From: Vibrio zhugei
GTDB taxonomy: Bacteria; Pseudomonadota; Gammaproteobacteria; Enterobacterales; Vibrionaceae
Length of the DNA: 64,000 nt
Assembly (NCBI RefSeq): GCF_003716875.1
Contig: NZ_CP033077.1
Span: 372,001-436,000, forward strand
Direction: 5' to 3'
A program made the translations under genes and the position numbers. Positions 26,889-60,574 of this stretch are shown here, one piece after another. The notes below the pieces were generated by a model, which made no database searches, had not been told where the DNA came from, and saw nothing but the letters and a program-made list of their open reading frames with translations. Position 1 is the stretch's first letter. Each line of letters begins with the position of its first letter.

Positions 26889-26920
26889 AGTCTACAGTCT
26901 GACCTATAGGTCAGAGTCAA
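26889..26920 (-). promoter_or_regulatory. MerR-type promoter with perfect 18-bp palindrome
   Basis: On the minus strand, a -35 TTGACT (26915-26920) and a -10 TAGACT (26889-26894) are 20 bp apart. This is the overlong spacer typical of MerR-activated promoters. The spacer holds the perfect palindrome TCTGACCTATAGGTCAGA (26898-26915). The site covers the merR stop codon and drives the oxidoreductase gene. Confidence 0.6.
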
Positions 26921-27263
26921 CCCCGCGAAGGCACAAATCTATCGATTCTCGATATTGCTCAATGCGCTCTTTTTGTCTTTCCAACTGGTTAATCTGGCCT
27001 TCAACCTCATGTTGCTTGTCTTTTAGAAAATCTAACACGCTCTGCCAATCAAAGTCCTCTTGGCTGCCTTTAAGAGCAACCAATTCAGAAAGGCGTATCC
27101 CCAGCGTCTGTGCTTCTTTGATTACTTTAATCAACTGAATATTTGTGGGGGTATACACTCGATACTTTCCTGAACGGGCAACAGTCAGCAATCCCAAAGA
27201 TTCATACAATCTAATTGCCCTTTGAGTCGCACCTGAACGCTCTGATGCTTCCTTAATAAACAC
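26904..27263 (-). CDS. MerR-family transcriptional regulator
   Basis: A 119-residue DNA-binding regulator. The N-terminal winged helix-turn-helix reads F-I-K-E-A-S-E-R-S-G-A-T-Q-R-A-I-R-L-Y-E-S-L-G-L. A long dimerisation helix follows (about residues 75-105). The single Cys near the C-terminus (S-I-D-L-C-L-R) could sense electrophiles or thiol stress, but this is a guess. The start is GTG at 27263 with GGAGG 4 nt upstream. The longer frame adds 41 residues foreign to the family. The last codons and stop lie within the operator of the next gene, linking regulator and target tightly. Confidence 0.85.
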   Translation of the reverse strand: MFIKEASERSGATQRAIRLYESLGLLTVARSGKYRVYTPTNIQLIKVIKEAQTLGIRLSELVALKGSQEDFDWQSVLDFLKDKQHEVEGQINQLERQKERIEQYRESIDLCLRGVDSDL

Positions 27264-27394
27264 ACTACCTCCAATATTCCGGGGCCTAACCACCCCAACA
27301 TCGAATGGATCCCAGTCATGGGCCACGACATCCTCTCGTTTCTTGCTATCACTGTCTGAATTTCTCGGAGCACGACAACAGAACACTCATGATA

Positions 27395-46763: not shown

Positions 46764-47072
46764 AATATACCTTCAAATTTTGTAAAGTGCGTCTTAACCC
46801 TTATGTTAGTTAAGCACAAATTTGCGCGTTGTGACTTATTTATAATTGTATCTAAAAGATACGAGATCTTTTTTCATCGTCGTTTCGTAGGGTTTGAAAG
46901 CCACATATCGGCGTTGTTTCTTACCCATGATTTCATGGCTATCATCGCGTCCAGCCCGTCATCGATAAAACCATGCAAAAACCATTCCTAGAAATCAAAC
47001 ACTTAGTCTTGACCTTCCTCTAGGGGGAAGGTGTAGAGTCTCTCAACCGTCATCAACAATGGGGCAAATAAA
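46764..47072. other. Intergenic region leading to a CueR-type promoter
   Basis: This 309-bp stretch separates the leftward chemoreceptor from the rightward small protein gene. The left part should hold the chemoreceptor promoter, which I cannot place. The right end holds the MerR/CueR-type promoter listed next. Nothing else is evident. Confidence 0.4.
47009..47039 (+). promoter_or_regulatory. CueR-type (MerR family) promoter
   Basis: The -35 is TTGACC (47009-47014) and the -10 is TAGAGT (47034-47039), with a 19-bp spacer. The dyad ACCTTCC-N7-GGAAGGT (47012-47018 and 47026-47032) overlaps the -35. The E. coli copA promoter recognised by CueR has the same TTGACCTTCC...GGAAGGT design and 19-bp spacer. 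It lies 33 bp before the ATG of a 35-residue Cys-Cys protein. Confidence 0.7.
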
Positions 47073-47180
47073 ATGGGGTGTTGTAATCAATCACCAAAAG
47101 GTGGGGCGCCACTGGGCGTATTTTTGAAGGTGGTGCTAGGCCTCGGTGTGCTGATTTTTTTACTGGCACTGTGGCACTAA
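47073..47180 (+). CDS. Small 35-residue membrane protein with N-terminal Cys-Cys
   Basis: This small open frame runs M-G-C-C-N-Q-S-P-K-G-G-A-P-L-G and then one hydrophobic segment (about residues 14-34, L-G-V-F-L-K-V-V-L-G-L-G-V-L-I-F-L-L-A-L) ending W-H. Adjacent cysteines at positions 3-4 face the likely cytoplasmic N-terminus and could hold Cu(I) or another soft metal. A CueR-type promoter lies directly upstream and a hairpin terminator directly downstream, so the unit is monocistronic. The ribosome site is weak. I recall no characterised homolog; the copper link is inference from the promoter. Confidence 0.6.
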   Translation: MGCCNQSPKGGAPLGVFLKVVLGLGVLIFLLALWH

Positions 47181-47200: not shown

Positions 47201-47233
47201 CGTTGGCACGATCCTCCTAGCATCGTGCCAACG
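47201..47233. terminator. Hairpin between the small Cys-Cys gene and the esterase gene
   Basis: A perfect 12-bp stem (CGTTGGCACGAT / ATCGTGCCAACG) with a 9-nt loop lies between two convergent genes. It can end both transcripts. No strong T-run is present. Confidence 0.6.
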
Positions 47234-47240
47234 GCGCGCT

Positions 47241-48113
47241 TTATTGATGCGACGGGCCCTTCGCTTTATTGACCGAACGGAAAAATTGCGTCATATCTTG
47301 CAGTGCCGTTGCACTGCCCGGATAAAACCAAATCTGGTTCGCTAAAATATCGACATGCCCGACCCCTGGGTATATTTTACTCTCGACGGGCACACCTTTT
47401 TGATGGCACGTCGCGACCAGTGCATCGAGGTTACTACGCGCGACTTCCTCATCATCGCTTCCCCAAAGCAATAACATCGGTGGTTCACTACCATCGATAA
47501 ACGTAGTCACTTGCATTTGTGAATAACGTTCTGGCGGCGCAAACATCTTTTTTAAATCATTAGCTTGTGGCACAAAATCATAAGGGCCAGCTAAACCAAC
47601 GAAGGCTTTGATCAGGCTTCGGTCTTTTCCAACCGCATTTAGATACCGCTCATCGGCCGTCAGCAATGCACCGATATGCGCCCCAGCAGAGTGACCAGCC
47701 ACAAAGATTCGATGAGGATCCCCACCATAGGCTTGAATATGCTCATCGACCCAAGCTAACGCTTTCGCCCCATCTTGCACAAACACAGGAAAACGCACTT
47801 GCGGATATTTGCGATAATCGGCGATCACCGTAACAAAGCCTTGGTTGGCGAGCTTGTTACCAATAAACGCGTACATGTCTTTTGAGCCAGACTCCCAGCG
47901 CCCACCATAAAAAAACACGATCACGGGTTTTGAGGTATCTTTCTGCTTTGCTGGCTCATACACATCCAGTTTTTGCAGAGGATCATCACCAAACGCAATA
48001 TTTTTCACGATGGTGTTGTGACTCCATTTCGCAGGAATATTGGCGACCTCTAGCCCCAATGTTGTGCAAGCGGATAATAAGAGACTGCCCATCGCAATAA
48101 AAAGTGATTTCAT
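47241..48113 (-). CDS. Lipoprotein alpha/beta hydrolase (carboxylesterase-like)
   Basis: A 290-residue exported lipoprotein: the signal M-K-S-L-F-I-A-M-G-S-L-L-L-S-A-C has its lipobox Cys at residue 16. The fold is alpha/beta hydrolase, with the oxyanion loop F-F-Y-G-G-R-W, nucleophile Ser in A-G-H-S-A-G (about residue 143), Asp probably in G-S-D-D-E-E, and His in G-V-G-H-V-D. It is related to the hormone-sensitive-lipase/kynurenine formamidase-like esterases. The substrate is unknown. It has a standalone gene. Confidence 0.85.
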   Translation of the reverse strand: MKSLFIAMGSLLLSACTTLGLEVANIPAKWSHNTIVKNIAFGDDPLQKLDVYEPAKQKDTSKPVIVFFYGGRWESGSKDMYAFIGNKLANQGFVTVIADYRKYPQVRFPVFVQDGAKALAWVDEHIQAYGGDPHRIFVAGHSAGAHIGALLTADERYLNAVGKDRSLIKAFVGLAGPYDFVPQANDLKKMFAPPERYSQMQVTTFIDGSEPPMLLLWGSDDEEVARSNLDALVATCHQKGVPVESKIYPGVGHVDILANQIWFYPGSATALQDMTQFFRSVNKAKGPSHQ

Positions 48114-52341: not shown

Positions 52342-52350
52342 CGCCCAAAT
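52342..52350 (+). repeat. Target-site duplication, left copy (9 bp)
   Basis: CGCCCAAAT, identical to the right copy at 53685-53693. It immediately precedes the left terminal repeat of the IS10-like element. Nine base pairs is the duplication length of IS10/Tn10. Confidence 0.9.
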
Positions 52351-53684
52351 CTTACGAATCCCCTCATAATTTCTATATAAAACAATGAGTAGACGCACAT
52401 CGCTCATTCTGATCTAATGAATTTCGCCAAAAACACACTTGATTCAATGAATTTAATAGGGAGCCCTAACGATGCGCGATGTTCAAATTCTACAGCAAAC
52501 TCTTGAAAACCAATGCCCTGGTATTCACAAAAAACGACTTAGATCTCTTATGCTTGCAACCAGAGCGGTACTGGGCGGCTCTGATCTCACCCTCACTAAA
52601 ATTGGACGAGCTCTCGACACTGATACCACGGTGAAACATGCCATCAAACGTATTGACCGATTGCTTGGTAATCGCAGTCTACATCGTGAAAAAGAGTCCA
52701 TATATAAATGGCATGCGTCCCTTATTACCCGAGCCAATCCTTTTCCTGTACTACTGGTTGATTGGTCGGATGTTCGTGAGCAACTGCGCTATATGACATT
52801 GCGAGCTTCGATATCCGTTAAAGGTCGCGCCGTCACGCTTTATGAACAGGCATTTGAGTACAAAAACTACAACTCACCCAAGAGCCATCAGCACTTTCTC
52901 GATAAGCTTCAATCCTTGCTCCCCCAAGGTTGCACCCCTATCATTATCTCCGACGCTGGCTTTAGAAATACGTGGTTCAGGCAAGTCGCCAACAAAGGTT
53001 GGTTCTGGCTTGGGCGTGTACGGGGCGAAGTCTCGATTAAGTGTGGCGAGAGCGCTTGGCAATGGAATAAAGCCTTTTACCCTCAAGCGACTGATAAGCC
53101 GCTGTTTTTAGGAGAAAGCCAACTGGCTAAGCGCTCACCGCTTCAGTGCTTTGCTTACTTATACAAGAGTCATCCCAAAGGCAGAAAAGCCCATCGGCAT
53201 AGTCGAACCTGTCAGAAACACTCGGCTGGAAAAGTGTTCCATAAAGGAGCGAAAGAGCCTTGGCTTCTGGTCACTAACATCCCCAACCATGTACTTAACG
53301 GCATTAAAATTACCCGTTTGTACGCCAAAAGAATGCAAATTGAAGAGTCGTTCCGAGATCTAAAAAGTCCAGCCTACGGGTTGGCGCTTCGCCATAACCG
53401 AACACGTTGCACCAAACGTATTGATATCTTGTTGCTCATGGCATTGATGGCCGAAATCATCATGTGGTGGAATGGCTTAATCGCCATGCAAGCCAAATGG
53501 CATTATGACTTCCAAGCCAACACCATCAAGCATCGCCGTGTGCTCTCCATTCCTAGACTTGGTAAGGAAGTACGTTGCCACCGAAGATACCGAATACAAG
53601 AGTCCCAATATCATTGGGCAATGGTCGAATATCAACGCCTTACGCATACCTGTGGGTTGGGGGAATTATGAGGGGATCCGCCAG
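52351..53684 (+). mobile_element. Complete IS10-like element (IS4 family), 1334 bp
   Basis: The element has 23-bp imperfect terminal repeats: left CTTACGAATCCCCTCATAA..., right (inward) CTGGCGGATCCCCTCATAA.... They share the IS10 core ATCCCCTCATAATT. It carries one intact transposase and is flanked by a perfect 9-bp target duplication. Length is close to IS10 (1329 bp). The exact duplication and intact frame suggest recent insertion. Confidence 0.93.
52472..53671 (+). CDS. IS4-family transposase, IS10 group
   Basis: A 399-residue cut-and-paste transposase resembling IS10 transposase along its whole length. DDE residues are D in L-V-D-W-S-D, D in I-I-S-D-A-G-F, and E in the Y-x-x-x-M-Q-I-E-E-S-F-R-D-L-K-S block. 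R-I-D-R-L-L-G-N-R near the N-terminus is typical. The stop lies inside the right terminal repeat. The start is the ATG after A-T-A-rich leader; GGAGCCC precedes it. Confidence 0.93.
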   Translation: MRDVQILQQTLENQCPGIHKKRLRSLMLATRAVLGGSDLTLTKIGRALDTDTTVKHAIKRIDRLLGNRSLHREKESIYKWHASLITRANPFPVLLVDWSDVREQLRYMTLRASISVKGRAVTLYEQAFEYKNYNSPKSHQHFLDKLQSLLPQGCTPIIISDAGFRNTWFRQVANKGWFWLGRVRGEVSIKCGESAWQWNKAFYPQATDKPLFLGESQLAKRSPLQCFAYLYKSHPKGRKAHRHSRTCQKHSAGKVFHKGAKEPWLLVTNIPNHVLNGIKITRLYAKRMQIEESFRDLKSPAYGLALRHNRTRCTKRIDILLLMALMAEIIMWWNGLIAMQAKWHYDFQANTIKHRRVLSIPRLGKEVRCHRRYRIQESQYHWAMVEYQRLTHTCGLGEL

Positions 53685-53693
53685 CGCCCAAAT
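53685..53693 (+). repeat. Target-site duplication, right copy (9 bp)
   Basis: CGCCCAAAT, matching the left copy. It follows the right terminal repeat directly. Confidence 0.9.
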
Positions 53694-59469: not shown

Positions 59470-59481
59470 TAGCTAAGGTAA

Positions 59482-60574
59482 GCCCCGATTTCAGATAATA
59501 AGTGCGACATTCATGGAAATATGTAGAAGAGGAAGCCAACTGCTGAAAGTGGTACGCTCTTCTCGCCAAAGAAACAAGCAGTACTACCATGAATTATCAA
59601 CAGTTGACCGAAGGCAGAAGATACCAGATTTCTGCTCTTTTGGAACGGGGAATTTCGGTTCCTGAAATAGCTAAAACAGTTCAGTGCCACCGCTCGACGG
59701 TATACCGTGAGCTTAAACGCGGTCGGAAGGGAGAGCATTATTGCCCTAACGAAGCCCAGATGTCGTCTACCAAAAAGCGCAAAACAGCACGTAAATACCG
59801 AATACCAAAGGAACGTGTCGATTTTATCCGCCTTCTTTTAGAAACAGATTGGAGTCCAGAGCAGATTTCTAATGTATTAACGAAAATTGGTGCATCTGTC
59901 AGTCATGAGTGGATCTATCGCTTTGTTGCTCAAGATAAACGCTTGGGCGGTAAGTTATATCGTCACTTGAGACAAGGTCATAAGCGGTATCGCCGAGGTA
60001 AACAAGAGAAAGCTCCAGCGATAAAAAATGCCGTTTCGATTGATGATAGACCAAGCATCGTTGACAGTAAGGAGCGGTTTGGTGACTGGGAAATCGACAC
60101 TGTGCTAGGTAAGCATGGTACAGGTGCAATGGTGACTATTTTAGAGCGTAAGACTCGATTTTACGTGGTAAAGAAAGTGCCATCTAAGTCAGCGGATGAT
60201 GTCACCAAAGCGACAATAGAGCTACTGAAGCCCTATAAGAAACATGTCCATACCATTACGGCAGATAACGGGCGAGAGTTTGCAGGTCATGAAACCATCG
60301 CAAAAGAATTAAAGGCTGATGTGTACTTTGCTCATCCGTACAGTTCTTGGGAGCGTGGTGCTAATGAGAATGCGAACGGTCTTTTAAGGCAATATGTGAA
60401 GAAAGGAACCGATCTAACGACAGTGACGGACATCGATATAGAGTTCGCTTTATCGCGGATAAATTACCGTCCGAGAAAGTGTTTAGGCTTCAAGCAGGCA
60501 GCCATTATATTTGAGGAGATGGCTTTAGCTTCTTGATATTGGAGAGTGTCGCACTTCGCAGTTGAATTCGGGGC
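59482..60574 (+). mobile_element. IS30-family insertion sequence, about 1.1 kb
   Basis: The terminal repeats are imperfect. The left begins GCCCCGATTTCAGAT... and the right (inward) GCCCCGAATTCAACT..., sharing AAGTGCGACA further in. One intact transposase lies inside. Flanks give at most a 2-bp AA duplication, typical of this family being short (2-3 bp) but not decisive. The element sits between the glycosylase gene and ackA. Confidence 0.85.
59589..60536 (+). CDS. IS30-family transposase
   Basis: A 315-residue DDE transposase. The N-terminal helix-turn-helix is S-V-P-E-I-A-K-T-V-Q-C-H-R-S-T-V-Y-R-E-L. The catalytic core has D in G-D-W-E-I-D-T-V-L-G, D in I-T-A-D-N-G-R-E-F, and E in N-E-N-A-N-G-L-L-R-Q-Y, the IS30 family signature. 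Intact and likely functional. Confidence 0.93.
   Translation: MNYQQLTEGRRYQISALLERGISVPEIAKTVQCHRSTVYRELKRGRKGEHYCPNEAQMSSTKKRKTARKYRIPKERVDFIRLLLETDWSPEQISNVLTKIGASVSHEWIYRFVAQDKRLGGKLYRHLRQGHKRYRRGKQEKAPAIKNAVSIDDRPSIVDSKERFGDWEIDTVLGKHGTGAMVTILERKTRFYVVKKVPSKSADDVTKATIELLKPYKKHVHTITADNGREFAGHETIAKELKADVYFAHPYSSWERGANENANGLLRQYVKKGTDLTTVTDIDIEFALSRINYRPRKCLGFKQAAIIFEEMALAS

Follow-up and report, generated by a model that had tools for sequence, protein, structure and literature searches.

The locus and its promoter

We analyzed a 64,000-nucleotide stretch of Vibrio zhugei DNA (contig NZ_CP033077.1, positions 372,001 to 436,000; here "the window," numbered from its first letter), in which an earlier note had proposed a CueR-type promoter driving a tiny gene with a possible role in copper handling. 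At this locus, a promoter of the copA type precedes a 35-codon gene for a membrane microprotein with adjacent cysteines. The microprotein is a member of a widely conserved, apparently undescribed family of vibrio proteins, the genes of which typically share this promoter and, in part, lie in copper operons. The features of the locus are listed here; in the text, loci and genomes are denoted by our L and G numbers.

47009..47039, plus strand: CueR-type promoter (TTGACC, 19-bp spacer, TAGAGT), an exact copA-type design with a by-chance expectation of 0.01
47012..47032, no strand assigned: operator dyad ACCTTCC-N7-GGAAGGT, the presumed CueR site and the sole exact dyad in the window
47060..47064, plus strand: putative weak Shine-Dalgarno-like TGGGG, read from the sequence, 8 nucleotides upstream of the ATG
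47073..47180, plus strand: 35-codon gene for the M-G-C-C single-helix membrane microprotein, supported by family conservation, purifying selection and an AlphaFold2 helix at residues 14-34
47079..47084, plus strand: codons of Cys3-Cys4, invariant in the 31-row and 58-row family alignments
47201..47233, plus strand: 12-bp hairpin (-30.2 kcal/mol, z -6.3), a probable terminator between the microprotein gene and a convergent esterase gene

The promoter elements occupy 47009-47014 (TTGACC) and 47034-47039 (TAGAGT), and the dyad halves occupy 47012-47018 (ACCTTCC) and 47026-47032 (GGAAGGT), so that direct reading bears out the spacing and the dyad described in the earlier note. With up to three mismatches allowed, the 31-bp promoter design is expected 0.01 times in shuffled windows; the two matches observed both lie at 47009-47039, one exact on the plus strand and the other shifted, with three mismatches, on the minus strand. 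The dyad alone is not rare at the same tolerance (2 observed vs 1.62 expected, exact only at 47012-47032), and therefore the whole promoter design is the distinctive part. The likeness to the Escherichia coli copA promoter also holds: the exact dyad, with half-sites identical to those of the window, is present at one place in the E. coli type-strain genome, which we take to be the copA promoter.

The frame runs from the ATG at 47073 to the stop codon at 47178-47180 and encodes MGCCNQSPKGGAPLGVFLKVVLGLGVLIFLLALWH, confirming the M-G-C-C protein proposed to lie behind the promoter; a 22-codon frame from 47059 that overlaps it out of frame (by eye) was ignored. The hairpin said to close the gene is real and lies just beyond the interval first described, with arms CGTTGGCACGAT (47201-47212) and ATCGTGCCAACG (47222-47233). 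None of 200 shuffles was equally stable; the following T tract is poor (CGCGCTTTATTG), and a terminator scan recovered a 6-pair stem only (47224-47238). The statement that this is the only gene behind the promoter stands for plus-strand frames of at least 90 amino acids, none of which was found from the microprotein gene to 48293, and does not extend to shorter mechanical plus-strand frames, which occur opposite the esterase gene (47241-48113, minus strand). The esterase gene and an SDR gene are neighbors common to the window and a syntenic relative, G696, in which TTGACCTTACACTTGGGGTAAGGTTTAAGCT lies upstream of the microprotein gene and TTGACCTTAACGTAAGGGTAAGGTTTATGCT upstream of copA, and which has a CueR match with an E-value of 4.7e-52.

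A conserved family of vibrio microproteins

A search with the window 35-mer in 329 vibrio-family genomes, counted as Vibrionaceae through named relatives and AckA selection, retrieved many full-length relatives. The count obtained with the 35-mer (220/329 at E<=10) takes in weak chance matches, and we use instead the 181 of 329 genomes that match profile A1 at E<=1e-5, which combines the window protein with members from the same 329 genomes, 31 sequences in all. In a draw of 394 genomes from the wider order, 22 match at E<=4e-13 and the next match is at 5.8e-4, a sharp split; the vibrio-family search covers 21 of these 22 too, G874 being the exception. At the looser E<=1, this draw gave matches in 181 of 394 genomes, and among three weaker ones inspected (L136, L137 and L138), only L137 (G863) was judged real because of its full-length match and its position behind CopG. 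The protein database yielded 58 clusters of relatives, the named ones from Vibrio, Photobacterium and Salinivibrio, labeled hypothetical, membrane protein or "YjcZ."

The family motif is M-[G/S]-C-C-N-x-x-P-x-G-G-...-K-helix, and the window protein fits both the head and the single helix. In the 31-row alignment, M1, C3, C4, N5, P8, G10 and G11 are invariant, all within the head (residues 1-11) and none in the helix; M1, C3, C4, P8 and G10 are invariant in the 58-row alignment as well, and N5, G11 and a lysine at the membrane edge are kept in at least 90% of both. No Pfam or NCBIfam model in the versions searched matches the family. PF28099.1, which is attached to one relative (P0001) and absent from the Pfam version searched, may have been built for this family very recently. 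Two relatives bear the UniRef name "YjcZ family sporulation protein," with which they have in common being tiny and hydrophobic; none of the 58 relatives has a YjcZ model among its Pfam or NCBIfam matches, and we regard the name as a likely misannotation. Among the literature matches listed, mainly from open papers, we found none on this family, which fits its earlier description as undescribed: the regulon is known in kind, and the protein family appears to be new.

The ratio of nonsynonymous to synonymous polymorphism (pN/pS) is 0.25 for the 35-amino-acid group (49 distinct coding sequences) and 0.47 for the 37-amino-acid group (45 sequences), rough values given the high pS (0.53 and 0.74, respectively). 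This substitution pattern indicates that the gene is under purifying selection among relatives and encodes a protein. AlphaFold2 modeling on the alignment gave a single helix at residues 14-34 and a loose head, with 17 residues at a predicted local distance difference test score of at least 90. Among 113 unique members, residue 2 is glycine or serine in 110, exactly two cysteines are present in 103, residues 2-20 carry a net positive charge in all 113, and the final 15 residues are neutral in 110. Under the positive-inside rule and the rule for removal of the N-terminal methionine, the charge pattern and the small residue 2 point to a cytosolic N-terminus that would mature to Gly/Ser-Cys-Cys.

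Linkage of the family to copA-type promoters

To score promoters, we used 15 fixed positions of the E. coli copA design, scanning 130 bp upstream with a threshold of 12. This score is reached upstream of 96 of the 113 unique members vs 4 of 457 control genes from the same loci, three of the four being in copper loci themselves, and in 5 of 2080 base-shuffled upstream regions. In the set ranked by E-value (the window and loci L024-L113; 90 members after exclusion of L104, which the ATG-based script missed, and of one L107 member out of two), 82 members reach the threshold, and in 81 of these the promoter starts 56-81 bp upstream of the ATG. A check on conservation and co-occurrence suggested in the earlier note thus found frame and promoter both conserved in relatives, and together. 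That the promoter yields a small RNA, with the 35 codons an untranslated chance frame, would suit the weak Shine-Dalgarno sequence and the shortness of the frame; set against the seven residues invariant across 31 diverse members, the pN/pS of 0.25 and the 56-81 bp from promoter start to ATG in nearly all members that reach the threshold, its probability is negligible.

The pattern TTKACCTT-N11-AAGST-N-TA, searched in 12 genomes picked for carrying the microprotein gene, has 24 exact sites. Nine are at the microprotein gene and nine at genes for CopA-type ATPases, called by Pfam (L149, L157, L199), by adjacency to the CueR gene of G499 (L162) or by the CxxC head alone (five). The others are at a CueO gene (NCBIfam, over cut-off), two CutF-like genes (by eye), a gene for a 109-amino-acid protein and, in two cases, no assigned gene. 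The site at the microprotein gene has one mismatch in G566 and G578 and is missed by the pattern in G491. The microprotein gene has the promoter architecture of the CueR regulon (copA, cueO and predicted vibrio cytochrome c genes), and exact sites in relatives' genomes precede copA and CueO as they do the microprotein gene. Several inspected sites with one mismatch precede copA, multicopper oxidase, cytochrome c and CutF-like genes.

Some of these sites and their surroundings deserve mention on their own. In L202 and L203, small cytochrome c genes lie behind TTGAGCTT...AAGCTTTA sites, in agreement with the prediction of CueR-controlled cytochrome c genes in vibrios (Permina et al. 2006, PMC1526738); sections 10 and 14 of that paper name no such microprotein. 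Probably secreted proteins are encoded behind copA-type sites in L158, L165, L200, L204 and L205, and those of L158 and L165 have a late LSRPPI stretch, CutF-like by eye. Directly 3' of the microprotein gene in several genomes (L064, L068, L069, L073-L075, L077, L150, L166, L210) is a gene for a protein of about 109-123 amino acids that ends in FCCDKV-[AK]-IR and is without a Pfam match; in G605 it is preceded by an exact copA-type site of its own, and it is a second unannotated candidate for the copper regulon. A scan of genome contigs for the exact dyad followed by MxCC returned 14 stretches, none with the family motif, and these were discarded as chance frames and repeats; the exact dyad proved too narrow a query, many vibrio sites being of the ACCTTAC type. 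In Legionella santicrucis (L002, L004), tandem repeats of about 116 bp each contain a perfect ACCTTCC...GGAAGGT palindrome and are unrelated to the microprotein family.

Copper operons and exchange of the regulator

In six loci, and also in L178-L180, L182, L185 and L186, the microprotein gene is followed by genes for a MerR-family regulator and an HMA-domain P-type ATPase; DUF411 or CopG is often near this form (models were run on representatives). In L181, L194 and L195, it lies upstream of Cus genes, separated from them by one or two genes for small secreted proteins, and the CusB of L195 contains a CusF domain. It also occurs behind CopG (L191, L196), beside CopD, CopC and CopG (L190, from G874, outside the vibrio-family set) and with CueP directly 3' (L094); a gene of L189 first taken for CueP proved to be DUF3316 and was not counted. 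Overall, 27 of the 113 members have a tested copper gene within 3 kb. The ranked part contributes 11 of its 78 members and the later part 16 of its 35, the loci L178-L197, partly picked for copper context, being counted apart. This clustering of relatives with genes for copper ATPases, Cus, CopG, CopC/CopD and CueP lends support to the copper-linked reading of the earlier note.

A tblastn search of plasmids with the window 35-mer gave no match, and searches with two relatives gave four and three records, each aligned over 14-15 residues only. Four of these seven records were opened, and three copper plasmids, all from Vibrio, carry full-length members upstream of MerR and ATPase genes, at a position where the plasmid gene table, which is incomplete, lists no gene. 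In the Vibrio sp. THAF190c plasmid (L146, 523-9324), genes for TniQ, Csy3 and Cas6 are next to the microprotein-MerR-ATPase cassette, which is perhaps cargo of a Tn7-like CRISPR-associated transposon. General heavy-metal genes accompany the plasmid copies, and CueR is reported to react with copper, silver and gold (PMC1526738), both of which would suit a role in the membrane as sink or damage marker under thiol stress or exposure to soft metals besides copper (Ag, Au, Hg), with copper as just one inducer. The neighbors named by models are of the copper type (CopC, CopD, CueP, CusB with a CusF domain, CopA-type ATPase, DUF411), and we consider such a sink quite unlikely.

The regulator itself varies across the family. 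A MerR gene is directly 3' in 19 of the 113 members, with half-sites such as ACCTATG and ACCTGTG, and the CueR-like TT at half-site positions 4-5 is present in none of these 19 vs 87 of the 94 others, a count that, like the promoter score, is built on the E. coli consensus and favors ACCTT sites. CueR (TIGR02044) was matched in 305 of the 329 genomes at E<=1e-30, in 297 over the cut-off. Of the 24 genomes without a match at E<=1e-30, 14 retain the microprotein gene, and among the 11 of these that were examined (the other three are G593, G748 and G750), 10 have it before a MerR gene and an ATPase gene; the CueR-negative status of G748, G750, G784 and G791 follows by subtraction from the match listing. 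MerR-linked copies are found in CueR-bearing genomes too, for example, G721 and G612. Considering that the operator differs when a MerR gene is the neighbor and that genomes lacking CueR keep the gene, promoter and regulator change together while the microprotein stays. This pattern amounts to a natural experiment, and we take it as the best sequence evidence for a functional link to copper.

The position as first gene in several copper operons recalls CutF/CopL-like (DUF2946-like) leaders, which are likewise small, linked to copper operons and often first; CutF-like leaders are known from copper operons (PMC9973294). A cis-acting leader peptide, the translation of which controls a downstream copper gene as for CutF of Rhodobacter, is nevertheless very improbable here. 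The window copy stands alone before its hairpin, with the next gene on the other strand, and by a mechanical estimate 70 of the 90 ranked members have no close downstream same-strand frame of at least 70 amino acids that outweighs the opposite strand. The earlier description of the gene as monocistronic is therefore right for the window copy and for these members by estimate, and does not hold for all. Moreover, the microprotein lacks a CutF-like proline-rich C-terminus (the window protein ends in FLLALWH), and where CutF-like genes are present beside its gene, the two are distinct.

A putative membrane-tethered Cu(I) ligand

Two further groups of known proteins are comparable. With the soluble CopZ/HMA Cu(I) chaperones, the microprotein has in common two cysteines near one end and, presumably, a cytosolic site in the service of CopA; it differs in that the cysteines are adjacent, on a 13-residue head joined to a membrane helix, and the window protein has one helix only, no CxxC and no Pfam HMA match. 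MerT and MerF are small membrane proteins with vicinal cysteines and a MerR-type promoter; they have two or three helices, with the cysteine pair inside a helix, whereas the microprotein, without a Pfam match to them, has one predicted helix (14-34) and Cys3-Cys4 outside it.

We propose that the microprotein is probably a copper-stress protein, a membrane-tethered Cu(I) ligand or chaperone that serves copper export, because its gene has a copA-class promoter, the invariant Cys-Cys pair sits at the N-terminus on a Pro/Gly-Gly arm, one helix would anchor it, and the neighbors vary between CopA-type ATPase, Cus and CopG systems. As the design, conservation and company of the promoter suggest, cytosolic Cu(I) would activate CueR at 47009-47039. 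The 35-residue product would insert into the inner membrane as a single helix, leaving the N-terminus on the cytosolic side, and methionine would probably be removed to leave Gly-Cys-Cys-Asn at the mature N-terminus. The Cys-Cys pair, on its short Pro/Gly-Gly tether near the membrane, could then capture Cu(I) and pass it to, or hold it for, the copper-exporting P-type ATPase CopA.

The main rival is a regulatory subunit, the helix of which would pack against a transporter (CopA or a Cus pump) and adjust how active or stable that transporter is, the cysteines sensing rather than carrying copper. Small proteins such as KdpF, AcrZ and MgtS tune partner proteins in this way, and the small size, the single predicted helix, the lysine near the helix start and the position before genes for a CopA-type ATPase or Cus proteins at several loci would be compatible with such a role. 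Considering that the seven invariant positions are all in the head and that the different transporters accompanying the gene imply no single partner, we regard this role as unlikely.

Several observations weigh against a tethered Cu(I) ligand in copper export. The family is absent at E<=1e-5 from 148 of the 329 genomes, despite CueR over the cut-off in 297, and therefore the microprotein is dispensable for copper export. In the ranked part, 67 of 78 members have none of the tested copper genes within 3 kb, with flanks that often span 1.5 kb only. Eight of the 90 ranked members score below 12: L083, L092 and L100, which are in Cus or CopG operons; L101, which has a MerR-linked operator; L076, L096 and L103, which score 11; and L113, which scores 8 and for which neither a promoter site nor a copper neighbor was found. 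The K and S of the genome-wide pattern were admitted after the family sites had been seen, and with one mismatch allowed, 70 sites are found vs 27 for the reversed control pattern, so that single one-mismatch sites are mixed with chance and prove little. Promoters of the MerR family can respond to silver, gold and other metals, too. Finally, CueR binding, copper induction and copper binding at this locus, as well as the handover of Cu(I) to CopA, are steps that we infer.

A broader proposal, possible and somewhat doubtful in our view, is that these proteins are a new class of copper protein: a Gly/Ser-Cys-Cys-Asn site, created by methionine removal and pinned to the inner leaflet, would form a vibrio-wide membrane-tethered Cu(I) carrier recruited in turn by CueR, other MerR regulators, Cus and CopG operons, and copper cassettes of plasmids and Tn7-like transposons. 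Copper export in Gram-negative bacteria is usually seen as a known list, namely, CueR, CopA, CueO, Cus, CopG and CueP. The microprotein would add an overlooked member, found in more than half of the Vibrionaceae genomes examined and in many copies under a copA-class promoter, with a length of about 36 residues that makes the gene easy to miss. The head is short enough for a Cu(I)-binding test with a synthetic peptide.

Other features of the window

Away from the microprotein gene, a frame at 26904-27386 (minus strand) reads like a MerR-family regulator and is beside a putative flavodoxin-like reductase frame. The regions at 52350-53689 and 59474-60573 encode insertion sequence (IS) transposases of the IS4 and IS30 families and, in most of the matches listed, share 87-91% identity with copies carried by plasmids of Vibrio, Shewanella and Photobacterium.
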